From: Isoetes taiwanensis
Lineage: Eukaryota > Streptophyta > Lycopodiopsida > Isoetales > Isoetaceae
Direction: 5' to 3'
NCBI GenBank assembly: GCA_021234155.1
Contig: JAJEKV010000522.1
Coordinates: forward strand, 62,001-126,000
Length of the DNA stretch: 64,000 nucleotides
The notes beneath the pieces were generated by a model. The model was not told the origin of the DNA and did no database searches. It was given only the letters and a program-made list of their open reading frames with translations. Below, one piece after another: positions 1 through 33,815 of the stretch (positions are counted from its first letter, which is position 1; each line of letters begins with the position of its first letter). Made by a program: the position numbers and the translations under genes.

Positions 1-71
1 ATTAGTCTAGTTGGATTTGGGATACTTGGCTCTCAAGGAAAGAAGACCCCGGGTTCAGCTAAACAATGGAA
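1..71 (+). pseudogene. tRNA-Glu(CUC)-like, cut by window start, degenerate
   Basis: Begins inside the D arm (TAGTCTAGTTGG). The anticodon region GGCTCTCA can be read, but the anticodon stem and T arm are altered. The 3' acceptor strand survives as ACAATGGA. Confidence 0.6.
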
Positions 72-146
72 TTTCATTTTAGGGCTTTTAAGGATCATGT
101 GCTTTTTGCTTGAATGAGGTATTCACTCTTTTAAAATTTTTGAAAT

Positions 147-227
147 TCCATTGTAGTCTAGTTGGTTAGGATACTTGGCTTTCACATCCCTTCATTTGGT
201 ACATTGGGTTCAAGTCCGGCAATGGAA
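147..227 (+). pseudogene. tRNA-Glu(UUC)-like with an insertion
   Basis: The 5' acceptor, D arm and start of the TTC loop (GGCTTTCAC) are kept. The anticodon stem does not close, because extra bases sit between the loop and the T arm. The T arm lost one C. Confidence 0.65.
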
Positions 228-294
228 TTTCATATTTGACTTTTAAAATATCATGTGCATTTTGCTTGAATGACTCTTTTAAAACATTTGAAAT

Positions 295-340
295 TCCATT
301 GTAGTCTAGTTGGTTAGGATTTCAAGTCCCGGCAATGGAA
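295..340 (+). pseudogene. tRNA-Glu stub lacking the anticodon arm
   Basis: The D arm runs directly into TTCAAGTCCCGGCAATGGA. The anticodon arm and half of the T stem are missing. Confidence 0.7.
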
Positions 341-651
341 TTTGTAACTACTCAAATGTTAGAATTTAGTGTGTGTGCTTTAAGGCCATGCTTCCAATAG
401 GCATTTCAGTGGAGGATCATATTTGATGGATTTGTGATCTTAATTTTAATCTAATGTAGTAAGAACTGAAGGATATACTTTATTCATTCGTTGAGCTCTT
501 TTGAAAGGAACCCCAAGAAGGAGAATGCCAATTTTACTATCTAATACTCTTTTTATATTACGTAACTCAAAAAATGGTACCACCAAGGCCTCGGATACAA
601 ATATTTTAATGAGTGTGAGTTGAAGAACAACCTTTATTTAGGTAGCCAATC

Positions 652-724
652 TCCATTGTAGTCTAGTTGGTTAGGATACTTGGCTTTCACCCGAGAGACC
701 CGGGTTCAAGTGAATGCAATGGAA
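652..724 (+). pseudogene. Chimeric tRNA-Glu (TTC loop in the CUC slot), T arm broken
   Basis: Occupies the CUC position of its unit but reads CTTGG-CTTTCAC-CCGAG. The 5' stem and loop are of the UUC type and the 3' stem is of the CUC type. The T arm reads GTTCAAGTGAATG and cannot pair. Confidence 0.65.
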
Positions 725-791
725 TTTCATTTTTTTTTTTCGTGTTATCATGTGCATTTTGCTTGAATGACTCTTTTAAAACATTTGAAAT

Positions 792-834
792 TCCATTGTA
801 GTCTAGTTGGTTAGGATACTTGGCGGCAATGGAA
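792..834 (+). pseudogene. tRNA-Glu stub lacking anticodon and T arms
   Basis: Acceptor and D arm are followed directly by GGCGGCAATGGA. Confidence 0.7.
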
Positions 835-1170
835 TTTGTAACTACTCAAATGTTAGAATTTAGTGTGTGTGCTTTAAGGCCATGCTTCCAATAGGATTTT
901 GATCTTAAGTGGAGGATCATATTTGATGGATTTGTGATCTTAATCTCGTTCGATTGGGATCGTTCTGAGTAGTAAGGTTGAAGGATATACTTTATTCATT
1001 CGTTGAGCTCTTTTGAAAGGAACCCCAAGAAAGGAGAATGCCAATTTTACTATCTAATACTACTTTTTTTTTTATATTACGTAACTCAAAAATGGTACCA
1101 CCAAAGGCCTCGGATACAAATATTTTAATGAGTGTGTGTTGAAGAACAACCTTTATTTAGGTAGCTAATC

Positions 1171-1240
1171 TCCATTGTAGTCTAGTTGGTTAGGATACTT
1201 CGGCTCTCACCAGAGACCGGGTTCAAGTCAAAGCAATGAA
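1171..1240 (+). pseudogene. tRNA-Glu(CUC)-like, degenerate
   Basis: The CTC loop is present (GGCTCTCACC), but both anticodon stem strands, the T stem and the acceptor 3' strand (CAATGAA) are altered. Confidence 0.6.
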
Positions 1241-1302
1241 TTTTTTCTTGAATTTCTTTTTTCATTGAATGAGGTGATTGACTCTTTTAAAACATTTGAA
1301 AT

Positions 1303-1335
1303 TCCATTGTAGTCTAGTTGTTGGATACTTGCCAA
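1303..1335 (+). pseudogene. tRNA-Glu 5' fragment
   Basis: Only the acceptor 5' strand and part of the D arm remain, followed by unrelated bases. Confidence 0.55.
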
Positions 1336-1389
1336 AAAACTTGCGTTTGCTTGAATGAGGTTGGTTGACTCTTTTAAAACATTTGAAAT

Positions 1390-1460
1390 TCCATTGTAGT
1401 CTAGTTGGTTAGGATACTTGGCTTTCAATAAGCGACCGGGTTCAAGTCCCGGCAATGGAA
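1390..1460 (+). pseudogene. tRNA-Glu(UUC), near-complete, anticodon stem weakened
   Basis: The T arm and acceptor are intact. The anticodon arm reads CTTGGCTTTCAATAAG, so its 3' stem no longer matches. Confidence 0.6.
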
Positions 1461-1936
1461 TTTGTAACTACTCAAATGTTAGAATTTAGTGTGCTTGAAG
1501 GATGAGGCCATGCTTCCAATAGGCATTTGAAAGGTGGAGGATCATATTTGATGGATTTTTGATCTTAACTCAAAAATGTCACCAATGGGATACAAATATT
1601 TTTAATGAGTAGAGTTGAAAACAACCTTTAAGGATATACTTTATTCATTTGGTTAGGAGCTCTTTTGAAAGGAACCCCAAGAAGGAGAATGCCAATTTTA
1701 CTATCTAATACTAGTTTTTATATACTTAACTCAAAAAAATGGTACCACCAAAAGCCCTGATGGGGATATTTGAAAGAGTAAGAACTGAAGGATATACTTT
1801 ATTCATTCGTTGAGCTCTTTTTTTTTACCAATTTTACTATCTAATACAATTCGTAACTCAAAAAAATGGTAAAGGGTACAATTTTTTTAATGTGAGTGTG
1901 TGTTGAAGAACAACCTTTTTATTTAGGTAGCTAATC

Positions 1937-2010
1937 TCCATTGTAGTCTAGTTGGTTAGGATACTTGGCTCTTTCAAGAGAACCCGGGTTCAAGTCCCTA
2001 AGCAATGGAA
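1937..2010 (+). pseudogene. tRNA-Glu(CUC)-like, anticodon arm altered
   Basis: The acceptor pairs well. The anticodon region reads GGCTCTTTCAAGAGA and the T stem 3' strand is CCCTAAG. Confidence 0.6.
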
Positions 2011-2087
2011 TTTCATTCTTCACTTTACGTATCATCATGTGCATTTTGCTTGAATGAGGTGATTGACTCTTTTAAAACATTTGAAAT

Positions 2088-2162
2088 TCCATTGTAGTCT
2101 AGTTGGTTAGGATACTTGGCTATCACCCAAGCGACCCCGGGTTCAAGTCCCCGGCAATGGAC
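2088..2162 (+). pseudogene. tRNA-Glu-derived copy with anticodon ATC
   Basis: The anticodon stem is intact (CTTGG/CCAAG) but the loop reads CTATCAC, so the anticodon position is ATC, an Asp-type anticodon, instead of TTC. The T arm has extra C bases. Identity elements elsewhere are still of the Glu type, so real decoding is doubtful. Confidence 0.5.
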
Positions 2163-2223
2163 TTTTCGTATCATGTGCATTTTGCTTGAATGAGGTGATT
2201 GACTCTTTTAAAACATTTGAAAT

Positions 2224-2295
2224 TCCATTGTAGTCTAGTTGGTTAGGATACTTGGCTCTCACCCAAAGCGACCGGGTTCAAGTCCGGCAATGGAA
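2224..2295 (+). pseudogene. Chimeric tRNA-Glu (CTC loop, UUC-type stem) in the UUC slot
   Basis: Flanks are of the UUC-slot type. The arm reads CTTGG-CTCTCAC-CCAAAG. The T stem lost bases. Confidence 0.6.
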
Positions 2296-2668
2296 TTTGT
2301 AACTACTCAAATGTTAGAATTTGTGTGTGCTTTGAGGCCATGCTTCCAATAGGCATTTGGGAGTGGAGGATCATATTGATTTGATCAATATTTGTGGATT
2401 TGAAACATGAAGGATATATTTAATCTCGTCGATTGGGATACACGTTTATCATATTTGATGGATTTGTGATCTTAAGTAGGTAAGAAGGATATACTTTATT
2501 CATTCGTTGAGCTCTTTTGAAAGGAACCCCAAGAAGGAGAATGCCAATTTTACTATCTAATACTCTTTTTTATATTACGTAACTCAAAAATGGTACCACC
2601 AAAGGCCTCAGATACAAATATTTTAATGAGTGTGTGTTGAAGAACAACCTTTATTTAGGTAGCTAATC

Positions 2669-2742
2669 TCCATTGTAGTCTAGTTGGTTAGGATACTACG
2701 GCTCTCTCACCGAGAGACCGGGTTCAAGTCCCGGCAATGGAA
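2669..2742 (+). pseudogene. tRNA-Glu(CUC), anticodon arm shifted
   Basis: The T stem 3' strand and acceptor are intact, and the anticodon arm has been scrambled to TACGGCTCTCTCACCGAG. Confidence 0.6.
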
Positions 2743-2816
2743 TTTCATTCTTCAGCTTTATTATCATGTGCATTTTGCTTGAATGAGGTGATTGACTCTT
2801 TTAAAACATTTGAAAT

Positions 2817-2907
2817 TCCATTGTAGTCTAGTTGGTTAGGATACTTGGCTTTCACCCAAGCGACCGGGTTCAAGTCCCAAGTTGAGAAGCCAATTTCGGC
2901 AATGGAA
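2817..2907 (+). pseudogene. tRNA-Glu(UUC) with an insertion in the T arm
   Basis: The anticodon arm is intact (CTTGG-CTTTCAC-CCAAG). About 18 extra bases separate the T loop from the acceptor 3' strand. Confidence 0.65.
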
Positions 2908-2995
2908 TTTGTAACTACTCAAAGAATTATCATGTGCATTTAGGCTTGAATTGGTGGTTGACTCTTTTTTAAAAACATTTGAAATTCCATTGTAG

Positions 2996-3047
2996 TCTAG
3001 TTTTAGGATACTTGGCCATGAACGGGGTTCAAGAAAGAGAATGGAAT
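2996..3047 (+). pseudogene. tRNA-Glu remnant
   Basis: The acceptor 5' strand and fragments of the other arms remain. No anticodon can be assigned. Confidence 0.5.
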
Positions 3048-3135
3048 TTGTAACTTGTTAGGAATTTTGTGAGTGTTGAGGAATCATATAGGCATTTCAT
3101 TTTGGAGGATGTGATTTGATTGTGTGATCTTAATC

Positions 3136-3174
3136 TTAGGATACTTGGCTTTCACCCAAGCGACCGGGTTCAAG
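3136..3174 (+). pseudogene. Internal tRNA-Glu(UUC) fragment inside the spacer
   Basis: A D-arm-to-T-loop piece with an intact TTC anticodon arm lies where spacer sequence is expected. It looks copied from a neighbouring gene. Confidence 0.6.
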
Positions 3175-3390
3175 ATGGGATACACGTTAGTGATAGTAAG
3201 AACTGAAGGATATACTTTATTCATTAGTTGAGCTCTTTTTGAAAGGAACCCCAAGAAGGAGAATGCCAATTTTACTATCTAATACTCTTTTTTATATTGC
3301 GTAACTCAAAAATGGTACCACGAAAGGCCTCAGATACAAATATTTTAATGAGTGTGTGTTGAAGAACAACCTTTATTTAGGTAGCTAATC

Positions 3391-3462
3391 TCCATTGTAG
3401 TCTAGTTGGTTAGGATACTCGGCTCTCACCCGAGAGACCGGGGGTTCAAGTCGGCAATGGAA
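3391..3462 (+). pseudogene. tRNA-Glu(CUC), T arm altered
   Basis: The anticodon arm is perfect (CTCGG-CTCTCAC-CCGAG). The T arm reads CCGGGGGTTCAAGTCGG, so the stem is shifted. Confidence 0.6.
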
Positions 3463-3536
3463 TTTCATTTTCAGCTTTAAGTATCATGTGCATTTTGCTT
3501 GAATGAGGTGATTGACTCTTTTAAAACATTTGAAAT

Positions 3537-3609
3537 TCCATTGTAGTCTAGTTGGTTAGGATACTTGGCTTTCACCCAAGCGACCCGGGTTCAAGTCCCG
3601 GCAATGGAA
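3537..3609 (+). tRNA. tRNA-Glu(TTC): tRNA-Glu(UUC), intact
   Basis: First exact consensus UUC copy from the left. The 7-bp acceptor is TCCATTG/CAATGGA, the anticodon arm is CTTGG-CTTTCAC-CCAAG and the T arm is CCGGG-TTCAAGT-CCCGG, with discriminator A. There is no run of four T close behind it. Confidence 0.93.
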
Positions 3610-3952
3610 TTTGTAACTACTCAAATGTTAGAATTTAGTGTGTGTGCTTTGAGGCCATGCTTCCAATAGGCATTTGAGTGGAGGATCATATTTGATGGAT
3701 TTGTGTCTTAGTTCTTAGGATGGCTTTCACCTTAAATGGGATTCAACGTTATTCATTCAATGGTTCTTTTGTAGAAGAACTGAAGGATATAATTTTTATT
3801 CATTCTTTTGAGCTCTTTCCAAAAGGAACCCCAAGAAGGAGAATGCCAATTTTACTATCTAATACTCTTTTTTATATTCGTAACTCAAAAAAATGGTACC
3901 ACCAAAAGGAATTTTTATTCATACAAATATTTTAATGAGTGTGTGTTGAAAT

Positions 3953-4232
3953 TCCATTGTACTAGTTTTAGGATTTAGGTAGCGGGTTAATCTCCATTGT
4001 AGTCTAAAATGTTAGAAATTTAGTTGGGATACATTTATGGAGGGATAATCTCATTGTAGAGACCCGGGTTCCGGGTTCAATGGAACTTTGAATTTTATCA
4101 TGTGCATTTTGCTTTTTACTAGGTGATTGACTCTTTTTAAAACATTTGAAATTCCATTGTAGTCTAGTACAAATATTTTAAGGATACTTTTTCAAAACAT
4201 TTTTGAAATTCCATTGTAGTCTAGTTGGTTAT
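3953..4232 (+). pseudogene. Scrambled array unit with tRNA-Glu 5' fragments
   Basis: Short acceptor/D-arm pieces (TCCATTGTAGTCTAG) occur near 3953, 3992, 4153 and 4210 without anticodon or T arms. This is the most rearranged unit of the array. Confidence 0.55.
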
Positions 4233-4332
4233 GGAATTTCATTCTTGAGTTCAAATATCAATGGAATTTCATTTTGCTTCATGTGCATTTTGCTTGAATG
4301 AGGTGGTTGACTCTTTTTAAAACATTTGAAAT

Positions 4333-4405
4333 TCCATTGTAGTCTAGTTGGTTAGGATACTTGGCTTTCACCCAAGCGACCCGGGTTCAAGTCCCGGCAA
4401 TGGAA
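4333..4405 (+). tRNA. tRNA-Glu(TTC): tRNA-Glu(UUC), intact
   Basis: Identical to the array UUC consensus in all four arms. It marks the start of the well-conserved part of the array. Confidence 0.93.
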
Positions 4406-4731
4406 TTTGTAACTACTCAAATGTTAGAATTTAGTGTGTGTGCTTTGAGGCCATGCTTCCAATAGGCATTTCGAGTGGAGGATCATATTTGATGGATTTG
4501 TGATCTTAATCTCGTCGATGGGATACACGTTACAGTAGTAAGAACTGAAGGATATACTTTATTCATTCGTTGAGCTCTTTTGAAAGGAACCCCAAGAAGG
4601 AGAATGCCAATTTTACTATCTAATACTCTTTTTTATATTACGTAACTCAAAAACGGTACCACCAAAGGCCTCAGATACAAATATTTTAATGAGTGTGAGT
4701 TGAAGAACAACCTTTATTTAGGTAGCTAATC

Positions 4732-4804
4732 TCCATTGTAGTCTAGTTGGTTAGGATACTTGGCTCTCACCCGAGAGACCCGGGTTCAAGTCCCGGCAAT
4801 GGAA
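4732..4804 (+). tRNA. tRNA-Glu(CTC): tRNA-Glu(CUC), one G-U pair in the anticodon stem
   Basis: The arm is CTTGG-CTCTCAC-CCGAG, a 5' strand of the UUC type with a 3' strand of the CUC type. It closes with one wobble pair and all other arms are perfect. Confidence 0.85.
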
Positions 4805-4878
4805 TTTCATTCTTCAGCTTTCGTATCATGTGCATTTTGCTTGAATGAGGTGATTGACTCTTTTAAAACATTTGAAAT

Positions 4879-4951
4879 TCCATTGTAGTCTAGTTGGTTA
4901 GGATACTTGGCTTTCACCCAAGCGACCCGGGTTCAAGTCCCGGCAATGGAA
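4879..4951 (+). tRNA. tRNA-Glu(TTC): tRNA-Glu(UUC), intact
   Basis: Exact consensus copy. Its partner CUC gene ends 74 bp upstream. Confidence 0.93.
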
Positions 4952-5274
4952 TTTGTAACTACTCAAACGTTAGAATTTAGTGTGTGTGCTTTGAGGCCAT
5001 GCTTCCAATAGGCATTTCGAGTGGAGGATCATATTTGATGGATTTGTGATCTTAATCTCCATTCGATGGGTAGTGAGTAGTAAGAACTGAAGGATATACT
5101 TTATTCATTCGTTGAGCTCTTTTGAAAGGAACCCCAAGAAGGAGAATGCCAATTTTACTATCTAATACTCTTTTTTTATATTACGTAACTCAAAAATGGT
5201 ACCACCAAAGGCCTCAGATACAAATATTTTAATGAGTGTGTGTTGAAGAACAACCTTTATTTAGGTAGCTAATC

Positions 5275-5349
5275 TCCATTGTAGTCTAGTTGGTTAGGGA
5301 TCGGCTCTCTCCGAGAGACCGGGTTCAAGTCAAGTCCCCCGCAATGGAA
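5275..5349 (+). pseudogene. tRNA-Glu(CUC)-like, degenerate
   Basis: D arm and anticodon stem are altered (GGGATCGGCTCTCTCCGAG). The T-loop segment is duplicated as GTTCAAGTCAAGTCC. Confidence 0.6.
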
Positions 5350-5424
5350 TTTCATTTTTCAGACTTACAATTATCATGTGCATTTTGCTTGAATGAGGTG
5401 ATTGATTTTTAAAACATTTGAAAT

Positions 5425-5554
5425 TCCATTGTATTTTCTAGTTGGAACAATTTTATTTAGGGAGCTAATTTCCATTGTTAGTCTACAATGGTTGGATTTC
5501 CACCCTTGAAGTGGTTGACTCTTTTTAACCGGGTTCAAGTCCCAAGCAATGGAA
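5425..5554 (+). pseudogene. tRNA-Glu split into 5' and 3' pieces
   Basis: The acceptor 5' strand is at 5425 and the T loop plus acceptor 3' strand at about 5529-5554. Spacer-like and anomalous bases lie between them. Confidence 0.55.
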
Positions 5555-5878
5555 TTTGTAACTACTCAAATGTTAGAATTTTTGTTGTGCTTTGAGGCCA
5601 TGCTTCCAATAGGCATTTCGAAAGTGGAGGATCATATTTGATGGATTTGTGATCTTAATCTTCGATGGGATCACATTACAAGAGTAAGAACTGAAGGATA
5701 TACTTTATTCATTCGTTGAGCTCTTTTGAAAGGAACCCCAAGAAGGAGAATGCCAATTTTACTATCTAAGTTCTTTTTTTATATTACGTAACTCAAAAAA
5801 TGGTACCACCAAAGGCCTCAGATACAAATATTTTAATGAGTGTGAGTTGAAGAACAACCTTTATTTAGGTAGCTAATC

Positions 5879-5949
5879 TCCATTGTAGTCTAGTTGGTTA
5901 GGATACTTGGCTCTCACCCGAGACCCCGGGTTCAAGTCCCGCAATGGAA
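5879..5949 (+). pseudogene. tRNA-Glu(CUC), short variable region
   Basis: The anticodon arm closes (CTTGG-CTCTCAC-CCGAG). Bases are lost around the variable loop and the T stem 3' strand. Confidence 0.55.
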
Positions 5950-6024
5950 TTTCATTTTTCAACTTTTTGTATCATGTGCATTTTGCTTGAATGAGGTGAT
6001 TGACTCTTTTAAAACATTTGAAAT

Positions 6025-6095
6025 TCCATTGTAGTCTAGTTGGTTAGGATACTTGGCTTTCACCCAAGCGACCGGGTTCAAGTCAAGCAATGGAA
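6025..6095 (+). pseudogene. tRNA-Glu(UUC), T stem broken
   Basis: The anticodon arm is perfect. The T arm reads CCGGGTTCAAGTCAAG, so the 3' stem strand is lost. Confidence 0.6.
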
Positions 6096-6452
6096 TTTGT
6101 AACTACTCAAATGTTAGAATTTAGTGTGTGTGCTTTTGAGGCCATGCTTCCAATAGGCATTTCGAGAGTGGAGGATCATATTTGATGGATTTGTGATCTT
6201 AATTTGCTTAGTCATTTGGGATACGTTGGTTAGGAGTAGTAAAAGGGTTCAAAGGAGAAGGATATACTTTATTCATTCGTTGAGCTCTTTTGAAAGGAAC
6301 CCCAAGAAAGAGAATGCCAATTTTACTATCTAATACCAAGAAAGAGAATTTTTTTTATATTACGTTAAAAAAAATGGTACCACCAAAGGCCTCGGATACA
6401 AATATTTTAATGAGTGTGAGTTGAAGAACAACCTTTATTTAGGTAGCTAATC

Positions 6453-6525
6453 TCCATTGTAGTCTAGTTGGTTAGGATACTTGGCTCTCACCGAGAGACC
6501 GGGTTCAAGTCCCCAAGCAATGGAA
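6453..6525 (+). pseudogene. tRNA-Glu(CUC), T stem and anticodon stem altered
   Basis: The CTC loop is readable. The stems lost pairing at CACCGAG and CCCCAAG. Confidence 0.6.
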
Positions 6526-6599
6526 TTTCATTTTTCAGCTTTCGTATCATGTGCATTTTGCTTGAATGAGGTGGTTGACTCTTTTAAAACATTTGAAAT

Positions 6600-6672
6600 T
6601 CCATTGTAGTCTAGTTGGTTAGGATACTTGGCTTTCACCCAAGCGACCCGGGTTCAAGTCCCGGCAATGGAA
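6600..6672 (+). tRNA. tRNA-Glu(TTC): tRNA-Glu(UUC), intact
   Basis: Exact consensus copy, with A and B boxes and all stems paired. Confidence 0.93.
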
Positions 6673-6984
6673 TTTGTAACTACTCAAATGTTAGAATTTA
6701 GTGTGTGTGCTTTGAGGCCATGCTTCCAATAGGCATTTTGAGTGGAGGATCATATTTGATGGATTTGTGATCTTAATCTCGTCGATAGTAGTAAGAACTG
6801 AAGGATATACTTTATTCATTCGTTGAGCTCTTTTGAAAGGAACCCCAAGAAAGAGAATGCCAATTTTACTATCTAATACTCTTTTTTATATTACGTAACT
6901 AAAAAATGGTACCACCAAAGGCCTCAGATACAAATATTTTAATGAGTGTGAGTTGAAGAACAACCTTTATTTAGGTAGCTAATC

Positions 6985-7051
6985 TCCATTGTAGTGGTTA
7001 GGATACTCGGCTCTCACCCGAGAGACCCGGGTTCAAGTCCCGGCAATGGAA
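6985..7051 (+). pseudogene. tRNA-Glu(CUC) with a 6-bp D-arm deletion
   Basis: TCCATTGTAGTGGTTAGG lacks the TCTAGT block, which destroys the D stem and the A box. The anticodon and T arms are perfect. Confidence 0.7.
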
Positions 7052-7125
7052 TTTCATTTTTCAGCTTTCGTATCATGTGCATTTTGCTTGAATGAGGTGG
7101 TTGACTCTTTTAAAACATTTGAAAT

Positions 7126-7198
7126 TCCATTGTAGTCTAGTTGGTTAGGATACTTGGCTTTCACCCAAGCGACCCGGGTTCAAGTCCCGGCAATGGAA
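7126..7198 (+). tRNA. tRNA-Glu(TTC): tRNA-Glu(UUC), intact
   Basis: Exact consensus copy. Confidence 0.93.
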
Positions 7199-7532
7199 TT
7201 TGTAACTACTCAAATGTTAGAATTTAGTGTGTGTGCTTTGAGGCCATGCTTCCAATAGGCATTTCGAGTGGAGGATCATATTTGATGGATTTGTGATCTT
7301 AATTCCAATAATTTCGATCGGATATCTTAATCTAAGTAGTAACTGAAGGATATACTTTATTCATTCGTTGAGCTCTTTTGAAAGGAACCCCAAGAAAGAG
7401 AATGCCAATTTTACTATCTAATACTTTTTTTTTATTATTCGTAACTCAAAAATGGTACCACCAAAGGCCCTCGAGATACAAATATTTTAATGAGTGTGAG
7501 TTGAAGAACAACCTTTATTTAGGTAGCTAATC

Positions 7533-7609
7533 TCCATTGTAGTCTAGTTGGTTAGGATACTTTCGGCTCTCACCCGAGAGACCCGGGGTTCAAGTCCCAA
7601 GCAATGGAA
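7533..7609 (+). pseudogene. tRNA-Glu(CUC) with small insertions
   Basis: The anticodon arm is intact. There are two extra T before it and an extra G in the T stem. Confidence 0.6.
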
Positions 7610-7684
7610 TTTCATTTTTCAACTTTAAGTATCATGTGCATTTTGCTTGAATGAGGTGATTGACTCTTTTAAAACATTTGAAAT

Positions 7685-7757
7685 TCCATTGTAGTCTAGT
7701 TGGTTAGGATACTCGGCTCTCACCCGAGAGACCCGGGTTCAAGTCCCAGCAATGGAA
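7685..7757 (+). tRNA. tRNA-Glu(CTC): tRNA-Glu(CUC) sitting in the UUC slot
   Basis: The 5' flank (CATTTGAAAT) and 3' flank (ATTTGTAACTACTC) are those of a UUC gene, but the arm is CTCGG-CTCTCAC-CCGAG. It looks like gene conversion of the anticodon arm. The T stem has one mismatch (CCCAG). Confidence 0.75.
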
Positions 7758-8112
7758 TTTGTAACTACTCAAATGTTAGAATTTATTGTGCTTTGAGGCC
7801 ATGCTTCCAATAGGCATTTCGAGTGGAGGATCATATTTGATGGATTTGTGATCTTAATCATTTCGATCGATGGGATAGGCATTTGGAGAAGGATATACTT
7901 TATGGATTTGGATTAGTAAGAAGAACTGAAGGATATACTTTATTCATTCGTTGAGCTCTTTTGAAAGGAACCCCAAGAAAGAGAATGCCAATTTTACTAT
8001 CTAATACTCTTTTTTATATTACGTAACTCAAAAATGGTACCACCAAAGGCCTCAGATACAAATATTTTAATGAGTGTGAGTTGAAGAACAACCTTTATTT
8101 AGGTAGCCAATC

Positions 8113-8185
8113 TCCATTGTAGTCTAGTTGGTTAGGATACTCGGCTCTCACCCGAGAGACCCGGATTCAAGTCCCGGCAATGGAA
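8113..8185 (+). tRNA. tRNA-Glu(CTC): tRNA-Glu(CUC), one T-stem mismatch
   Basis: Differs from the consensus by one base: CCGGA instead of CCGGG, which also changes the B box to GATTCAAGTCC. Confidence 0.7.
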
Positions 8186-8259
8186 TTTCATTTTTCAGCT
8201 TTCGTATCATGTGCATTTTGCTTGAATGAGGTGATTGACTCTTTTAAAACATTTGAAAT

Positions 8260-8332
8260 TCCATTGTAGTCTAGTTGGTTAGGATACTTGGCTTTCACCC
8301 AAGCGACCCGGGTTCAAGTCCCGGCAATGGAA
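8260..8332 (+). tRNA. tRNA-Glu(TTC): tRNA-Glu(UUC), intact
   Basis: Exact consensus copy. Confidence 0.93.
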
Positions 8333-8691
8333 TTTGTAACTACTCAAATGTTAGAATTTAGTGTGCTTTGAGGCCATGCTTCCAATAGGCATTTCGAGTG
8401 GAGGATCATATTTGATGGATTTGTGATCTTAACCTGTCGATCGGATATACTTTATTCATTACGAGTGGGATACGTTGTCGATCGGGATAACGTGATAGTA
8501 AGAACTGAAGGATATACTTTATTCATTCGTTGAGCTCTTTTGAAAGGAACCCCAAGAAAGAGAATGCCAATTTTACTATCTAATACTCTTTTTTATATTA
8601 CGTAACTCAAAAATGGTACCACCAAAGGCCTCAGATACAAATATTTTAATGAGTGTGAGTTGAAGAACAACCTTTATTTAGGTAGCTAATC

Positions 8692-8764
8692 TCCATTGTA
8701 GTCTAGTTGGTTAGGATACTCGGCTCTCACCCGAGAGACCCGGGTTCAAGTCCCGGCAATGGAA
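8692..8764 (+). tRNA. tRNA-Glu(CTC): tRNA-Glu(CUC), intact
   Basis: First exact consensus CUC copy: arm CTCGG-CTCTCAC-CCGAG, T arm CCGGG-TTCAAGT-CCCGG, acceptor TCCATTG/CAATGGA, discriminator A. The following TTTCATTCTTC has no run of four T, unlike most CUC genes here. Confidence 0.93.
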
Positions 8765-8838
8765 TTTCATTCTTCAGCTTTCGTATCATGTGCATTTTGC
8801 TTGAATGAGGTGGTTGACTCTTTTAAAACATTTGAAAT

Positions 8839-8911
8839 TCCATTGTAGTCTAGTTGGTTAGGATACTTGGCTTTCACCCAAGCGACCCGGGTTCAAGTCC
8901 CGGCAATGGAA
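8839..8911 (+). tRNA. tRNA-Glu(TTC): tRNA-Glu(UUC), intact
   Basis: Exact consensus copy. With the CUC gene at 8692 it forms one of the few fully intact pairs. Confidence 0.93.
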
Positions 8912-9237
8912 TTTGTAACTACTCAAATGTTAGAATTTAGTGTGTGTGCTTTGAGGCCATGCTTCCAATAGGCATTTCGAGTGGAGGATCATATTTGATG
9001 GATTTGTGATCTTAATCTCGTCGATGGGATACACGTTACAGTAGTAAGAACTGAAGGATATACTTTATTCATTCGTTGAGCTCTTTTGAAAGGAACCCCA
9101 AGAAGGAGAATGCCAATTTTACTATCTAATACTCTTTTTTATATTACGTAACTCAAAAATGGTACCACCAAAGGCCTCAGATACAAATATTTTAATGAGT
9201 GTGAGTTGAAGAACAACCTTTATTTAGGTAGCCAATC

Positions 9238-9290
9238 TCCATTGTAGTCTAGTTGGTTAGGATACCCGGATTCAAGTCCCGGCAATGGAA
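9238..9290 (+). pseudogene. tRNA-Glu lacking the anticodon arm
   Basis: The D arm is followed directly by ACCCGGATTCAAGTCCCGG. The anticodon arm is deleted and the same CCGGA mismatch as at 8113 is present, so the two copies are related. Confidence 0.7.
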
Positions 9291-9364
9291 TTTCATTTTT
9301 CAGCTTTCGTATCATGTGCATTTTGCTTGAATGAGGTGATTGACTCTTTTAAAACATTTGAAAT

Positions 9365-9437
9365 TCCATTGTAGTCTAGTTGGTTAGGATACTTGGCTTT
9401 CACCCAAGCGACCCGGGTTCAAGTCCCGGCAATGGAA
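9365..9437 (+). tRNA. tRNA-Glu(TTC): tRNA-Glu(UUC), intact
   Basis: Exact consensus copy. Confidence 0.93.
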
Positions 9438-9786
9438 TTTGTAACTACTCAAATGTTAGAATTTAGTGTGTGTGCTTTGAGGCCATGCTTCCAATAGGCA
9501 TTTCGAGTGGAGGATCATATTTGATGGATTTGTGATCTTAATCTCGTCGATCGGATACACGTTACAGTAGTAAGAACTGAAGGATATACTTTATTCTTTC
9601 GTTGAGCTCTTTTGGAACCCCAAGAAAGAGAATGCCAATTTTACTATCTAATACTCTTTTGCCAATTTTACTATCTAATACTCTTTTTCATATTACGTAA
9701 CTCAAAAATGGTACCACCAAAGGCCTCAGATACAAATATTTTAATGAGTGTGAGTTGAAGAATAACCTTTATTTAGGTAGCTAATC

Positions 9787-9859
9787 TCCATTGTAGTCTG
9801 GTTGGTTAGGATACCTGGCTCTCACCCGAGAGACCCGGGTTCAAGTCCCGGCAATGGAA
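9787..9859 (+). tRNA. tRNA-Glu(CTC): tRNA-Glu(CUC), substitutions in D arm and anticodon stem
   Basis: GTCTGGTT replaces GTCTAGTT, and CCTGG pairs imperfectly with CCGAG. Full length, possibly functional. Confidence 0.6.
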
Positions 9860-9933
9860 TTTCATTTTTCAGCTTTCGTATCATGTGCATTTTGCTTGAA
9901 TGAGGTGGTTGACTCTTTTAAAACATTTGAAAT

Positions 9934-10006
9934 TCCATTGTAGTCTAGTTGGTTAGGATACGTGGCTTTCACCCAAGCGACCCGGGTTCAAGTCCCGGCA
10001 ATGGAA
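9934..10006 (+). tRNA. tRNA-Glu(TTC): tRNA-Glu(UUC), one anticodon-stem mismatch
   Basis: Single change CTTGG to CGTGG in the 5' strand of the anticodon stem. Otherwise consensus. Confidence 0.7.
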
Positions 10007-10360
10007 TTTGTAACTACTCAAATGTTAGAATTTAGTGTGTGTGCTTTGAGGCCATGCTTCCAATAGGCATTTCGAGTGGAGGATCATATTTGATGGATTT
10101 GTGATCTTAATCTCGTCGATGAATTTGGGATCGAGGATTCCAAGTAGCATAAGGATTAAGGATATGGATATGTGATCTTAAAGATGAAGGATATACTTTA
10201 TTCATTCGTTGAGCTTTATTTTGAAAGGAAGGAACCCAAGAAAGAGAATGCCAATTTTACTATCTAATACTCTTTTTAATATTACGTAACTCAAAAATCT
10301 CAGATACAAATATTTTAATAAGTGTGAGTTGAAGAACAACCTTTATTTAGATAGCTAATC

Positions 10361-10433
10361 TCCATTGTAGTCTAGTTGGTTAGGATACTCGGCTCTCACA
10401 GAGAGACCCCGGGTTCAAGTCCCGGCAATGGAA
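10361..10433 (+). pseudogene. tRNA-Glu(CUC), 3' anticodon stem altered
   Basis: CTCGG-CTCTCAC is followed by AGAGA, so the stem does not close. T arm and acceptor are intact. Confidence 0.6.
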
Positions 10434-10510
10434 TTTCATTTTTCAGCTTTTAGATTATCATGTGCATTTTGCTTGAATGAGGTGGTTGACTCTTTTAAAA
10501 CATTTGAAAT

Positions 10511-10573
10511 TCCATTGTAGTCTAGTTGGTTAGGATACTTGGCTTTCACCCAAGCGACCGGGTTTCAATGGAA
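10511..10573 (+). pseudogene. tRNA-Glu(UUC) with a truncated T arm
   Basis: The anticodon arm is perfect, then ACCGGGTTTCAATGGA. The T loop and 3' stem are missing. Confidence 0.65.
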
Positions 10574-10956
10574 TTTGTAACTACTCAAAATGGAATTTGT
10601 AAGTGTGCTTACTCAAATGTTAGAATTTAGTGGTGTGTGTGATTTTTGAGGCCATGCTTCCAATAGGCATTTTCAGTGGAGGATCATATTTGATGGATTT
10701 GTGATCTTAATCTCGTGGAGGATCATATTTGATGGATACACGTTCGGATACATAGTAAAATAGTAAGAACTGAAGGATATACTTTATTCATTTGTTGAGC
10801 TCTTTTGAAAGGAACCCCAAGAAGGAGAATGCCAATTTTACTATCTAATACTCTTTTTTATATTACGTAACTCCAAAACGGTACCACCAAAGGCCTCAGA
10901 TACAAATATTTTAATGAGTGTGAGGTGAAGAACAACCTTTATTTAGGTAGCTAATG

Positions 10957-10991
10957 TCTATTATAGTCTAGTTGGTTAGGATGCAATGGAA
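10957..10991 (+). pseudogene. tRNA-Glu stub
   Basis: Only a mutated acceptor (TCTATTAT), the D arm and the 3' acceptor remain. Confidence 0.65.
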
Positions 10992-11065
10992 TTTCATTCT
11001 TCAGCTTTCGTATCATGTGCATTTTGCTTGAATGAGGTGGTTGATTCTTTTAAAACATTTGAAAT

Positions 11066-11138
11066 TCCATTGTAGTCTAGTTGGTTAGGATACTTGGCTT
11101 TCACCCAAGCGACCCGGGTTCAAGTCCCGGCAATGGAA
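11066..11138 (+). tRNA. tRNA-Glu(TTC): tRNA-Glu(UUC), intact
   Basis: Exact consensus copy. Confidence 0.93.
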
Positions 11139-11445
11139 TTTGTAACTACTCAAATGTTAGAATTTAGTGTGTGTGCTTTGAGGCCATGCTTCCAATAGGC
11201 ATTTCGAGTGGAGGATCATATTTGATGGATTTGTGATCTTAATCTCATCGATGGGATACACGTTACAGTAGTAAGAACTGAAGGATATACTTTATTCATT
11301 CGTTGAGCTCTTTTGAAAGGAACCCCAAGAAAGAGAATGCCAATTTTACTATTACGTAACTCAAAAATGGTACCACTAAAGGCCTCAGATACACATATTT
11401 TAATGAGTGTAGGTTGAAGAACAACCTTTATTTAGGTAGCCAATC

Positions 11446-11521
11446 TCCATTGTAGTCTAGTTGGTTAGGATACTCGGCTCTCACCCGAGAGACCCGGATT
11501 CAAGTCCAAGTAGCAATGGAA
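11446..11521 (+). pseudogene. tRNA-Glu(CUC), T arm disrupted
   Basis: Perfect anticodon arm. The T arm reads CCGGATTCAAGTCCAAGTAG. Confidence 0.65.
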
Positions 11522-11595
11522 TTTCATTTTTCAGCTTTCGTATCATGTGCATTTTGCTTGAATGAGGTGGTTGACTCTTTTAAAACATTTGAAAT

Positions 11596-11668
11596 TCCAT
11601 TGTAGTCTAGTTGGTTAGGATACTTGGCTTTCACCCAAGCGACCCGGGTTCAAGTCCCGGCAATGGAA
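11596..11668 (+). tRNA. tRNA-Glu(TTC): tRNA-Glu(UUC), intact
   Basis: Exact consensus copy. Confidence 0.93.
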
Positions 11669-12015
11669 TTTGTAACTACTCAAATGTTAGAATTTAGTGT
11701 GCTTTGAGGCCATGCTTCCAATAGGCATTTCGAGTGGAGGATCATATTTGATGGATTTGTGATCTTAATCGGGATATTTATGTAAGAACTGAAGGATTGG
11801 GATACGGATACGTTCTGAGTAGTAAGAACTGAAGGATATACTTTATTCATTCGTTGAGCTCTTTTGAAAGGAACCCCAAGAAAGAGAATGCCAATTTTAC
11901 TATCTAATACTCTTTTTTATATTACGTAACTCAAAAATGGTACCACCAAAGGCCTCAGATACAAATATTTTAATGAGTGTGAGTTGAAGAACAACCTTTA
12001 TTTAGGTAGCTAATC

Positions 12016-12088
12016 TCCATTGTAGTCTAGTTGGTTAGGATACTCGGCTCTCACCCGAGAGACCCGGGTTCAAGTCCCGGCAATGGAA
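12016..12088 (+). tRNA. tRNA-Glu(CTC): tRNA-Glu(CUC), intact
   Basis: Exact consensus copy. A T5 run at 12094-12098 is a good Pol III terminator. Confidence 0.93.
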
Positions 12089-12093
12089 TTTCA

Positions 12094-12098
12094 TTTTT
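12094..12098 (+). terminator. Pol III T5 terminator behind tRNA-Glu(CUC)
   Basis: TTTTT lies six bases after the tRNA 3' end. The same CATTTTTC block follows most CUC genes, while some copies have CATTCTTC and lack it. Confidence 0.6.
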
Positions 12099-12162
12099 CA
12101 GCTTTCGTATCATGTGCATTTTGCTTGAATGAGGTGGTTGACTCTTTTAAAACATTTGAAAT

Positions 12163-12235
12163 TCCATTGTAGTCTAGTTGGTTAGGATACTTGGCTTTCA
12201 CCCAAGCGACCCGGGTTCAAGTCCCGGCAATGGAA
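12163..12235 (+). tRNA. tRNA-Glu(TTC): tRNA-Glu(UUC), intact
   Basis: Exact consensus copy. With the CUC gene at 12016 it makes a complete pair. Confidence 0.93.
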
Positions 12236-12561
12236 TTTGTAACTACTCAAATGTTAGAATTTAGTGTGTGTGCTTTGAGGCCATGCTTCCAATAGGCATT
12301 TCGAGTGGAGGATCATATTTGATGGATTTGTGATCTTAATCTCGTCGATCGGATACACGTTACAGTAGTAAGAACTGAAGGATATACTTTATTCATTCGT
12401 TGAGCTCTTTTGAAAGGAACCCCAAGAAAGAGAATGCCAATTTTACTATCTAATACTCTTTTTTATATTACGTAACTCAAAAATGGTACCACCAAAGGCC
12501 TCAGATACAAATATTTTAATGAGTGTGAGTTGAAGAACAACCTTTATTTAGGTAGCTAATC

Positions 12562-12634
12562 TCCATTGTAGTCTAGTTGGTTAGGATACTCGGCTCTCAC
12601 CCGAGAGACCCGGGTTCAAGTCCCGGCAATGGAA
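12562..12634 (+). tRNA. tRNA-Glu(CTC): tRNA-Glu(CUC), intact
   Basis: Exact consensus copy, followed by CATTTTTC. Confidence 0.93.
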
Positions 12635-12708
12635 TTTCATTTTTCAGCTTTCGTATCATGTGCATTTTGCTTGAATGAGGTGGTTGACTCTTTTAAAACA
12701 TTTGAAAT

Positions 12709-12865
12709 TCCATTGTAGTCTATTTGTAACTACTCAAATGTTAGAATTTAGTGTGTGTGCTTTGAGGCCATGCTTCCAATAGGCATTTCGAGTGGAATTT
12801 GTAACTACTGTTAGAATTTAGTGTGTGTGCTTTGAGGCCATGCTTCCAATAGGCATTTCGAGTGG
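12709..12865 (+). pseudogene. tRNA-Glu(UUC) 5' stub and duplicated downstream spacer
   Basis: After TCCATTGTAGTCTA the gene body is missing and the downstream block (TTTGTAACTACTCAAATG onward) follows. That block is then repeated once more to about 12865. Confidence 0.65.
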
Positions 12866-13115
12866 AGGATCATATTTCATATTTGATGGATGATCTTAAT
12901 CTCGTCGATGGGATAGTAAGTAAGAACTGAAGGATATACTTTTTATTCATTCGTTGAGCTCTTTTGAAAGGAACCCCAAGAAAGAGAATGCCAATTTTAC
13001 TATCTAATACTCTTTTTTATATTACGTAACTCAAAAATGGTACCACCAAAGGCCTCAGATACAAATATTTTAATGAGTGTGAGTTGAAGAACAACCTTTA
13101 TTTAGATAGCTAATC

Positions 13116-13194
13116 TCCATTGTAGTCTAGTTGGTTAGGATACTCGGCTCTCACCCGAGAGACCCGGGTTCAAGTCCGTGTGAAAGCAATGGAA
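13116..13194 (+). pseudogene. tRNA-Glu(CUC), T stem 3' strand replaced
   Basis: Perfect anticodon arm. The T arm is followed by GTCCGTGTGAAAG before the acceptor strand. Confidence 0.65.
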
Positions 13195-13276
13195 TTTCAT
13201 TTTGAAGTGGAGGACTTTAAGTATCATGTGCATTTTGCTTGAATGAGGTGGTTGACTCTTTTAAAACATTTGAAAT

Positions 13277-13364
13277 TCCATTGTAGTCTAGTTGGTTAGG
13301 ATACTTGGCTTTCACCCAAGCGACGGGTTCAAGTCCAAGTCATGTGCATTTTGCTTGAATGGAA
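13277..13364 (+). pseudogene. tRNA-Glu(UUC) with linker sequence inserted in the T arm
   Basis: Intact anticodon arm. The T arm is broken by a piece of the array linker (CATGTGCATTTTGCTTGAAT), and the next 80 bp are scrambled array fragments. Confidence 0.65.
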
Positions 13365-13767
13365 TTTGTAACTACTAAAATGTTAGAATTCCATTTAGTC
13401 TAGTGCTTTGAGGCCATGCTTTTCCAATATGTTCAAGTCCCAAGAATGGATCATATTTGATGGAATTTAGTGTGTGTGCTTTGAGGCCATGCTTCCAATA
13501 GGCATTTCGAGTGGAGGATCATATTTGATGGATTTGTGATCTTAATCTCGTCGATCGGATACACGTTACAGTAGTAAGAACTGAAGGATATACTTTATTC
13601 ATTCGTTGAGCTCTTTTGAAAGGAACCCCAAGAAAGAGAATGCCAATTTTACTATCTAATACTCTTTTTTATATTACGTAACTCAAAAATGGTACCACCA
13701 AAGGCCTCAGATACAAATATTTTAATGAGTGTGAGTTGAAGAACAACCTTTATTTAGGTAGCTAATC

Positions 13768-13840
13768 TCCATTGTAGTCTAGTTGGTTAGGATACTCGGC
13801 TCTCACCCGAGAGACCCGGGTTCAAGTCCCGGCAATGGAA
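13768..13840 (+). tRNA. tRNA-Glu(CTC): tRNA-Glu(CUC), intact
   Basis: Exact consensus copy, followed by CATTTTTC. Confidence 0.93.
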
Positions 13841-13914
13841 TTTCATTTTTCAGCTTTCGTATCATGTGCATTTTGCTTGAATGAGGTGGTTGACTCTTTT
13901 AAAACATTTGAAAT

Positions 13915-13987
13915 TCCATTGTAGTCTAGTTGGTTAGGATACTTGGCTTTCACCCAAGCGACCCGGGTTCAAGTCCCGGCAATGGAA
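13915..13987 (+). tRNA. tRNA-Glu(TTC): tRNA-Glu(UUC), intact
   Basis: Exact consensus copy and partner of the CUC gene at 13768. Confidence 0.93.
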
Positions 13988-14318
13988 TTTGTAACTACTC
14001 AAATGTTAGAATTTAGTGTGTGTGCTTTGAGGCCATGCTTCCAATAGGCATTTCGAGTGGAGGATCATATTTGATGGATTTGTGATCTTAATCTCGTCGA
14101 TCGGATACACGTTACAGTAGTAAGAACTGAAGGATATACTTTATTCATTCGTTGAGCTCTTTTGAAAGGAACCCCAAGAAAGAGAATGCCAATTTTACTA
14201 TCTAATACTCTTTTTTATATTACGTAACTGAAAAAAAAATGGTACCACCAAAGGCCTCGAGATACAAATATTTTAATGAGTGTGAGTTGAAGAACAACCT
14301 TTATTTAGGTAGCTAATC

Positions 14319-14388
14319 TCCATTGTAGTCTAGTTGGTTAGGGATACTCGGCTCTCAGAGAGACCCGGGTTCAAGTCCCGCAATGGAA
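14319..14388 (+). pseudogene. tRNA-Glu(CUC), anticodon and T stems shortened
   Basis: GGCTCTCAGAGAGACC lacks the ACCC block, and the T stem 3' strand lacks one G. Confidence 0.55.
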
Positions 14389-14462
14389 TTTCATTTTTCA
14401 GCTTTCGTATCATGTGCATTTTGCTTGAATGAGGTGGTTGACTCTTTTAAAACATTTGAAAT

Positions 14463-14535
14463 TCCATTGTAGTCTAGTTGGTTAGGATACTTGGCTTTCA
14501 CCCAAGCGACCCGGGTTCAAGTCCCGGCAATGGAA
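14463..14535 (+). tRNA. tRNA-Glu(TTC): tRNA-Glu(UUC), intact
   Basis: Exact consensus copy. Confidence 0.93.
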
Positions 14536-14828
14536 TTTGTAACTACTCAAATGTTAGAATTTTGTGTGTGCTTTGAGGCCATGCTTCCAATAGGCATTTC
14601 GAAAGTGGAGGATCATATTTGATGGATTTGTGATCTTAATCTCGTCGATCGGATACATTCTAGTAGTAGTAAGAACTGAAGGATATACTTTATTATTCGT
14701 TGAGCTCTTTTGAAGGGAACCCCAAGAAGGAGAATGCCAATTTTACTATCTAATACTCTTTTTTATATTGTGTACAAATATTTTAATGAGTGTGAGTTGA
14801 AGAACAACCTTTATTTAGGTAGCTAATC

Positions 14829-14901
14829 TCCATTGTAGTCTAGTTGGTTAGGATACTTGGCTCTCACCCGAGAGACCCGGGTTCAAGTCCCGGCAATGGA
14901 A
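14829..14901 (+). tRNA. tRNA-Glu(CTC): tRNA-Glu(CUC), one G-U pair in the anticodon stem
   Basis: Same CTTGG/CCGAG form as the copy at 4732. All other arms are perfect. Confidence 0.85.
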
Positions 14902-14974
14902 TTTTCATTTCAGCTTTCATATCATGTGCATTTTGCTTGAATGAGGTGGTTGACTCTTTTAAAACATTTGAAAT

Positions 14975-15047
14975 TCCATTGTAGTCTAGTTGGTTAGGAT
15001 ACTTGGCTTTCACCCAAGCGACCCGGGTTCAAGTCCCGGCAATGGAA
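14975..15047 (+). tRNA. tRNA-Glu(TTC): tRNA-Glu(UUC), intact
   Basis: Last exact consensus copy of the array. Confidence 0.93.
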
Positions 15048-15368
15048 TTTGTAACTACTCAAACGTTAGAATTTAGTGTGTGTGCTTTGAGGCCATGCTT
15101 CCAATAGGCATTTCGAGTGGAGGATCATATTTGATGGTTTTTGTGATCTTAATAAGATATTGATGGGATACGTTTTATTAGTTGAAGGATATTTTATTCA
15201 TTCGTTGAGCTCTTTTGAAAGGAACCCCAAGAAGGAGAATGCCAATTTTACTACTATCTAATACTCTTTTTATATTAATGTAACTAAAAATGGTACCATG
15301 AAAGGCCTCAGATACAAATATTTTAATGAGTGTGTGTTGAAGAACAACCTTTATTTAGGTAGCTAATC

Positions 15369-15431
15369 TCCATTGTAGTCTAGTTGGTTAGGATGGCTCT
15401 CACGAGAGACCCGGGTTCAAACGGAATGGAA
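15369..15431 (+). pseudogene. tRNA-Glu(CUC)-like, degenerate, array edge
   Basis: Lost bases around GGATGGCTCTCACGAGAG and in the T arm (TTCAAACGGAATGGA). Confidence 0.6.
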
Positions 15432-15507
15432 TTTCATTTTTCAGACTTTCATTATCATGTGCATTTTGCTTGAATGAGGTGGTTGACTCTTTTAAAACAT
15501 TTGAAAT

Positions 15508-15532
15508 TCCATTGTAGTCTAGTTAGTTAGGA
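15508..15532 (+). pseudogene. tRNA-Glu 5' stub marking the right array boundary
   Basis: TCCATTGTAGTCTAGTTAG is the last array sequence. Non-repeated DNA follows. Confidence 0.75.
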
Positions 15533-33655: not shown

Positions 33656-33815
33656 TGTGGTCGGTTGCACTTGGGACTGGTATACCTTTTTCCAACATGC
33701 ATGCGAGCCATGGCAACTGAAATAACAGACTTTGGATCTACCATGATCCCGAATCATTCCAAAAAAATATTTGCTACTACAAAATGTGTTCTTGACTTCT
33801 AATTGCATTAATCGG
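33656..33815 (-). repeat. S spacer at the centre of inverted R arms
   Basis: Matches 19195-19335 in reverse orientation, including AACATGCATGCG and CTTGACTTCTAATTGC. It separates direct R copies on the left from inverted R copies on the right. Confidence 0.75.

Follow-up and report, generated by a model that had tools for sequence, protein, structure and literature searches.

What kind of locus repeats the same pair of tRNA-Glu genes over 15.5 kb, and have its many damaged-looking copies truly decayed? We examined the window, a 64,000-nucleotide stretch of Isoetes taiwanensis DNA, in which positions 1–15532 form a tandem array of approximately 546-bp units, each with a tRNA-Glu(CUC) and a tRNA-Glu(UUC) gene. 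All parts of the array described below lie on the + strand. The array is presumably nuclear. We consider it probable that it is a plant-type tandem tDNA array, amplified and homogenised by exchange and mostly silent, in which much of the apparent decay at CpG sites is consensus error.

Organisation of the array and its tRNA-Glu genes

The unit count was defined by cyclic alignment against a reference unit (12016–12561), which carries the majority base at all positions but one. This alignment gave 26 complete and two partial units of about 546 bp each, bearing out the roughly 27 head-to-tail units of the first-pass annotation. The array continues past the left edge of the window, and the count is a lower bound (at least 26 complete units). 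In the reference unit, tRNA-Glu(CUC) is followed by a 74-bp spacer, tRNA-Glu(UUC), and a 326-bp spacer. The short spacer between the CUC and UUC genes (12089–12162) contains a T5 run about 6 bp 3' of the CUC gene. The long spacer, from the UUC gene to the next CUC gene (12236–12561), includes unit positions 320–355, a CpG-dense region that was the least stable stretch in the variability profile along the unit. A conserved 330-bp spacer had been proposed; this holds for the clean units (326 bp in the reference), whereas the length varies elsewhere.

The core (units 8–25, 4732–14828) is more uniform overall, with some messy units. The units at 8692 and 13768 differ from the reference unit 12016 by about 1% or less, and such near-reference units are interspersed with worse ones; the left edge is the worst. 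There, the divergent left part (units 0–7, 1–4731) begins with a partial unit (1–146) that aligned poorly to the reference, and four of its units (1171, 1937, 2669, and 3993) carry 182–232 inserted bases each, in part extra tRNA-like half units. Among insertions of at least 12 bp, 399 of 747 8-mers were the array's own words, against 12 in shuffles; a true local duplication would give the same picture. At the right end (15508–15532), the array stops about 25 bases into the tRNA gene of the UUC slot.

The fixed order of one CUC and one UUC gene, as first annotated, is the general pattern, but it is broken by a slot swap, a chimera, truncated genes, and the insertions on the left. The gene in the UUC slot at 7685–7757 is of the CUC type (Rfam 61.2 bits), which is an exchange between the two isoacceptor genes. 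The gene in the CUC slot at 652–724 (Rfam 36.3 bits) is chimeric, combining a UUC-type anticodon arm with a CUC-type variable region. Large parts are missing from the genes starting at 9238, 10957, and 12709.

The window yielded 35 ARAGORN tRNA genes (17 Glu-UUC, 13 Glu-CUC, one called Asp, and four with unreadable anticodons), which all lie on the + strand within 1389–15048, and 40 Rfam tRNA matches, also all on the + strand (652–15047). Every one of these matches falls inside the array. The top 14 Rfam matches each scored 67.9 bits with an E value of 1.2e-12, and chance is therefore excluded. Fifty tRNA 5' ends with at most two errors were counted in the array. Exact matching to the intact gene reproduced the 14 intact UUC and four intact CUC genes reported previously. 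The type copy of the former is 12163–12235 (67.9 bits; 14 identical copies) and that of the latter is 12016–12088 (67.3 bits; other copies at 8692, 12562, and 13768). Each of the 18 exact genes has a cloverleaf, a Glu anticodon, and both internal boxes, A and B, intact (Rfam 67–68 bits); over the whole array, exact copies of the A box number 51 and those of the B box 39. The internal A and B boxes of tRNA genes serve as promoters for RNA polymerase III; hence, transcription of the intact genes by this enzyme is predicted to be possible. TTTT, taken as the shortest RNA polymerase III terminator, starts about 6 bp 3' of three of the four intact CUC genes, and in 11 of the 14 intact UUC genes the first TTTT lies at least 158 bp downstream. 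CAA was present directly upstream of four CUC genes; in the reference unit, the 10 bases before either gene lack it. The RNA folding z-scores of the two genes were weak (−1.8 and −1.0) and were not used as evidence.

The 5' end of the genes occurs in the A4 form 57 times in the array and never in the G4 form. G4-C69 is the ordinary plant form of tRNA-Glu, and the tRNA-Glu of the array is, we assume, cytosolic and not plastid. Among the matches listed in a literature search, five papers on plants (judged by title) contained the G4 form and none contained the A4 form. A4-U69 should in principle be usable as a built-in sequence tag, which would make expression of the array directly testable. Exact scans with the 5' half gave no match in viral contigs (A4 form) or in the genomes of bacteria and archaea (either form), in keeping with a plant gene. 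In a Pfam search with 10 of the 221 open frames of at least 60 codons in the window, one weak match was observed, to a reverse-transcriptase zinc finger, which missed its cut-off (E 0.024).

Papers are cited here by PMC number and from excerpts. PMC11700998 defines a tDNA cluster by at least three tRNA genes per kb. Two genes per 546-bp unit correspond to 3.7 per kb where both are readable. When the damaged units are included, the ARAGORN density is 2.3 per kb (35 genes in 15.5 kb); therefore, a gene finder would see at least three per kb in stretches only. The same orientation of units with a common spacer, another trait of such clusters, was found in the 26 full units, with all tRNA matches on the + strand. 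The array described by the first-pass annotation is thus confirmed with minor corrections.

Differences at CpG sites and the apparent decay

Differences between units were concentrated near CpG: 319 of 623 lay within 5 bp of a CpG, a zone that covers 148 of the 546 unit positions. This CpG-centred nature of the apparent decay is new here and was absent from the first-pass annotation. The majority base was used as the reference, and the polymorphic positions 29 and 334 were dropped. With a single-unit reference, the minority base at 334 had made an extra CpG and inflated the C-to-G counts; the effect was kept in the majority-base rerun. Only two of 545 circular shifts, those by 1 and 2 bases, reached the observed value. 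Insertions and deletions likewise peaked at CpG. Transitions made up 30 of 74 substitutions at CpG versus 120 of 242 elsewhere; that is, 44 of the 74 were not transitions. When all units were examined, GC, CC, GG, CA, and TG showed no comparable effect away from CpG. CHG away from CpG was seemingly raised over 21 positions in a first tally; this rise was not used because only two such sites lay more than 5 bp from CpG (values of 0.049 and 0.069; the mean was 0.029). tRNA structure alone was rejected as the cause of the disagreement, as stability is lowest within the spacer. In five copy pairs of other repeats in the window, CpG-flanking bases differed 1.4–3.1 times more than CpG-distant ones, but GpC-flanking bases, the control, also differed 1.3–2.4 times more; the CpG effect outside the array is therefore only suggestive.

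Modified cytosines cause consensus errors in nanopore sequencing. Base modifications alter the nanopore signal (PMC12862388). The CpG pattern fits such consensus error better than decay, and the CpG-centred, mostly non-transition changes suggest that many "pseudogene" copies were probably misread. The true number of intact genes would then likely exceed 18.

The alternative of true decay, with genuine pseudogenes in the degraded units of a dying satellite, seems somewhat unlikely to us. It accords with the three genes that lack large parts, and the edge units are not only worse but also diverge at non-CpG sites; part of the decay is therefore probably real. However, decay of methylated CpG should produce mainly C-to-T changes (G-to-A on the other strand), and neither the excess of non-transitions nor the CpG peak of insertions and deletions agrees with this expectation. 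More generally, intact tandem tRNA genes in long-read assemblies can resemble pseudogenes as a result of consensus errors centred on CpG, and counts of "pseudo" tDNAs in such arrays need checking against accurate reads.

Dosage, exchange, and growth of the array

Selection for tRNA-Glu dosage had been suggested as one cause of the array. Away from CpG, core units 8–26 showed 29/1387 events in tRNA bodies and 113/6175 in the spacer, i.e., the tRNA is no more conserved than the spacer. Together with the 11 UUC genes without a near TTTT, this leaves dosage selection unsupported in the core. The left units lean otherwise: in units 1–7, away from CpG, the tRNA parts were less variable (9/511) than the spacer (117/2275), which could reflect selection there. 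An array kept as a supply of both tRNA-Glu isoacceptors, constitutively or in particular cells, would agree with these left units, with the 18 intact genes in which both anticodons are paired per unit, with the numerous exact A and B boxes, and with CAA upstream of four CUC genes. Furthermore, root cap cells of Arabidopsis express the Ser-Tyr-Tyr (SYY) cluster although it is methylated (PMC12308677). We nevertheless regard such a supply as unlikely, given the equal conservation of spacer and tRNA in the core, the distant TTTT of most intact UUC genes, and a reference unit without CAA in the 10 bases before either gene, while an upstream CAA motif is present in 78–82% of plant tRNA genes (PMC11700998). 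A specific form of it, a cell-type-specific reserve of both isoacceptors that would be marked by A4-U69 and switched on in tissues making glutamate-rich proteins, and whose UUC genes, with no terminator close by, would give rise to long precursors with trailers and so be controlled at processing, is suggested by analogy with SYY in the root cap and seems very unlikely.

Variants outside CpG were linked between units. In three of the four units with C at position 541, the next unit had A at position 52, and A at 52 was never found without the preceding C at 541. T at position 512 occurred in units 2–6 and 8 and again in unit 26, the last full one. The recurrence of such linkage in non-adjacent units speaks against assembler duplication as the sole source of the units. 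Expansion of a few real units during assembly, to which the uneven and messy copies, the disagreements centred on CpG, and the patchwork nature of the insertions would point as signs of a poor local consensus, is therefore improbable, since plain duplication would yield same-haplotype copies, whereas linked non-CpG variants recur and the insertions and slot exchanges vary by unit.

Satellite-like amplification, the other cause that had been suggested, is supported by the more uniform core, the divergent edges, the linked variants in non-adjacent units, and the slot exchange; the earlier interpretation is thus partly supported. In our best reading, unequal exchange built up a satellite-like tDNA array whose core is more uniform than its variable edges. 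Likeness between units did not clearly rise with proximity in the array (199 of 2000 permutations were as extreme); ongoing local exchange would predict a greater likeness of neighbours, and this similarity test was not significant. The satellite-like array would have started from an ancestral neighbouring tRNA-Glu pair (CUC then UUC) with its spacers, which unequal exchange may have amplified head to tail to at least 26 units. The pattern of variation suggests that exchange and conversion homogenised the core and that the edge units diverged. By analogy with tDNA silencing in Arabidopsis (Hummel 2020, as quoted in PMC11700998 and PMC12308677), the array is likely to be methylated, mostly silent, and a minor contributor to the tRNA-Glu pool. 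Much of the apparent decay at CpG sites would reflect consensus errors that a nanopore-type assembly makes at methylated cytosines.

Comparison with known tRNA gene clusters

No glutamate array had been known to the first-pass annotation. A 50-species survey reports identical tandem pairs for all 20 amino acids (PMC12652284), and small tandem tRNA-Glu pairs are therefore known; Glu is, however, missing from its list of tandem pairs with the same amino acid and different anticodons, as excerpted. The excerpts of that survey mention tRNA-Glu once, in the Val-Glu-Phe figure. The excerpts of another survey, which covers 44 eudicot, 20 monocot, and 4 basal genomes, name clusters for Pro, Tyr-Ser, and Ile and mention tRNA-Glu once, in the gene-content table (PMC11700998); those of a further survey contain no mention (PMC2888827). 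Among the matches listed for titles and abstract beginnings of the open-access literature, there was no plant tRNA-Glu array.

The array belongs with the known tRNA gene clusters of plants. The human 1q23.3 repeat also has a tRNA-Glu gene in every unit (9–43 units per allele), but it is an animal repeat with a 7.3-kb unit, five tRNA genes, and a CTCF site (PMC4041453). The Val-Glu-Phe tandem repeat of a plant species coded Cpu contains tRNA-Glu(UUC); its unit, unlike that of the present array, combines genes for three amino acids and has a single glutamate anticodon (PMC12652284). The tRNA-Cys cluster on Arabidopsis chromosome 5 consists of tandem units of about 0.42 kb, variable in number between ecotypes and with a flanking pseudogene, but it concerns cysteine and has four units in the reference genome (PMC10701932). 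Plant tRNA-Pro clusters are tandem tDNAs for one amino acid with different-anticodon pairs in 33 of 50 species, whereas a strict two-gene unit repeated about 27 times is not described for them in the excerpts (PMC12652284). The SYY cluster on Arabidopsis chromosome 1 is alike in having about 27 head-to-tail units (PMC11700998, PMC10701932), with more than one tRNA gene per unit and a uniform core between variable flanks richer in variants and pseudogenes (PMC12308677). In the present array, the left units are the worst and three core units agree within about 1%, yet some core units are messy, and the divergence is probably partly technical. SYY carries serine and tyrosine genes, and its expression and methylation are established; the present array carries two glutamate isoacceptors. 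Large plant tDNA clusters are now extended to glutamate and to a unit of two isoacceptors.

Extent and anatomy of the glutamate tRNA array

A head-to-tail array of tRNA-Glu genes on the forward strand, detected with ARAGORN, Rfam and cyclic alignment, occupied positions 1-15532 of the window. The array is real. It extends past the window's left edge, and on the right it breaks off inside a tRNA gene, roughly 25 bases from that gene's start. Across the whole window, ARAGORN found 35 tRNA genes, all on the plus strand and within the array (17 Glu-UUC, 13 Glu-CUC, 1 read as Asp, and 4 unreadable), and all 40 Rfam tRNA matches fell there too. Cyclic alignment to the unit at 12016-12561 gave 26 full and 2 partial units. 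Exact matching reproduced the 14 UUC and 4 CUC intact genes counted in the first-pass annotation. No 14-base word of the unit was found elsewhere in the window, and the sole opposite-strand match of these words, at base 76, lay within the array.

In each unit, 74 bp separate the CUC gene from the UUC gene, and another 326 bp follow; the genes are named by anticodon. The two genes differ at aligned positions 30, 35, 42 and 45; position 35 is the first anticodon base, and positions 30 and 42, opposed in the anticodon stem, form a C-G pair in the CUC gene and T-A in its UUC counterpart. In both genes, acceptor position 4 is A and its partner is T: the A-form 5' sequence (TCCATTGTAG) occurred 57 times and the T-form partner sequence (GCAATGGA) 48 times, the G and C forms never. 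G4-C69 is the ordinary plant tRNA-Glu form. Within the portions of the open-access literature covered by our search, the A form was not found, and the G form was present in 5 papers, on plants judging by title.

Exact A and B boxes numbered 51 and 39, respectively. Downstream of the intact CUC genes, TTTT started at about 6 bp in three of the four and at 31 bp in the remaining one; for the intact UUC genes the nearest TTTT was at 158-206 bp in 11 of 14 and at 25-91 bp in 3. CAA lay immediately upstream of 4 CUC genes, where CCAATC replaced the CTAATC seen in 20. Irregular genes were a CUC gene with UUC-slot flanks (7685), a chimera (652), and genes lacking large parts (starts 9238, 10957 and 12709). 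In the cyclic alignment, the units at 1171, 1937, 2669 and 3993 carried 182-232 inserted bases, in part additional half units bearing tRNA-like copies, and several core units (8-26, numbered left to right) were messy, which makes a uniform core with variable flanks less certain here.

Divergence centred on CpG and other repeats

With the majority base as the reference and polymorphic positions 29 and 334 excluded, 319 of 623 events lay within 5 bp of a CpG, a zone covering 148 of 546 positions. The event rate was 0.159 at CpG, dropped to 0.082 at a distance of 1-2 bp, and was 0.028 more than 20 bp away. Only 2 of 545 circular shifts, those of 1 and 2 bases, reached the observed CpG value. Insertion and deletion openings were likewise highest at CpG. 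GC, CC, GG, CA and TG away from CpG had no effect across all units. Methyl-cytosine deamination would produce mostly transitions; here, transitions were 30 of 74 substitutions at CpG versus 120 of 242 elsewhere. Units 8-26 alone showed the same pattern (172 of 314 events near CpG; 19 transitions of 43). We infer that modified cytosines were miscalled in the consensus of a nanopore-type assembly, and this CpG-centred error probably overstates the apparent decay of the copies. Insertions of at least 12 bp (31 of 197) were patchworks of the array's own words, a result also expected from true local duplication.

In five pairs of other window repeats, difference was raised 1.4 to 3.1 times next to CpG; this is no proof of the effect there, because it was also raised 1.3 to 2.4 times next to GpC. 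At 43312-43863, short repeats (TTTTGAGATGTTCAAAAT) are separated by CpG-dense stretches differing irregularly among copies, by eye resembling the disagreement in the array. The window also holds a degenerate 19-bp repeat in two arrays (GGCTCCAACATGCCA-like; 16986-18035 and 35829-36945, the latter with an inverted arm), a 1.7-kb element in two copies about 85% identical (24989-26668 and 44102-45769), and several direct and inverted copies, also about 85% identical, of a 1.1-1.3-kb repeat (32423-35842). Broken open frames at 20691-24336 look by eye like a LINE-type retrotransposon, and one of five frames scanned weakly matched the Pfam model of a reverse-transcriptase zinc finger (E 0.024). A polypyrimidine tract of about 2 kb lies at 50200-52100 (GC skew -0.70 and AT skew -0.71 across 50001-52000).

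Probable amplification and possible constraint

Away from CpG, tRNA and spacer were equally variable in units 8-26 (29/1387 versus 113/6175; Fisher 0.51), which therefore indicates homogenisation rather than constraint in the core. In units 1-7 the tRNA was less variable (9/511 versus 117/2275; Fisher 0.0004, the events not being independent), as in units 1, 2 and 6 alone (2/219 versus 46/975); this left-edge difference may reflect constraint, or easier alignment of the tRNA 5' halves. Of the two origins offered in the first-pass annotation, satellite-like amplification is the most likely, and a dosage reserve is unproven. Taken as a whole, amplification by unequal exchange, with mostly silent genes and apparent decay that is in good part consensus error, appears reasonably probable. 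Telling against local exchange, adjacent units did not resemble each other significantly more than units further apart did (199 of 2000 permutations). Pure assembler duplication is disfavoured since units that are not adjacent share non-CpG differences. Four units have C at unit position 541, and in three cases (13/14, 15/16, 19/20) the next unit has an A at position 52 that is absent elsewhere; T at position 512 occurs in units 2-6 and 8 and again in 26, the last full unit.

Comparison with known tRNA clusters

One survey compared genomes from 44 eudicots, 20 monocots and 4 basal angiosperms; in the parts consulted, the clusters named are Pro, Tyr-Ser and Ile, and its sole tRNA-Glu mention is in a gene-content table (PMC11700998). 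Tandem tRNA-Glu pairs as such are already known, since identical tandem pairs exist for all 20 amino acids according to excerpts of another study, of 50 species, which also describe a Val-Glu-Phe tandem in a species coded Cpu; Glu is absent from that study's list of tandem pairs sharing an amino acid but differing in anticodon (PMC12652284). The portions of the surveys compared name no large array of glutamate tRNA genes with two paired isoacceptors. The human 1q23.3 repeat differs, with a single tRNA-Glu in each 7.3-kb unit in the text available (PMC4041453). The array belongs among plant tandem tDNA clusters, of which the Arabidopsis Ser-Tyr-Tyr cluster is one. In the sections consulted, uniform units make up the core of that cluster, its flanks are variable and carry pseudogenes, and it is expressed in root cap cells but silent in most tissues (PMC12308677).
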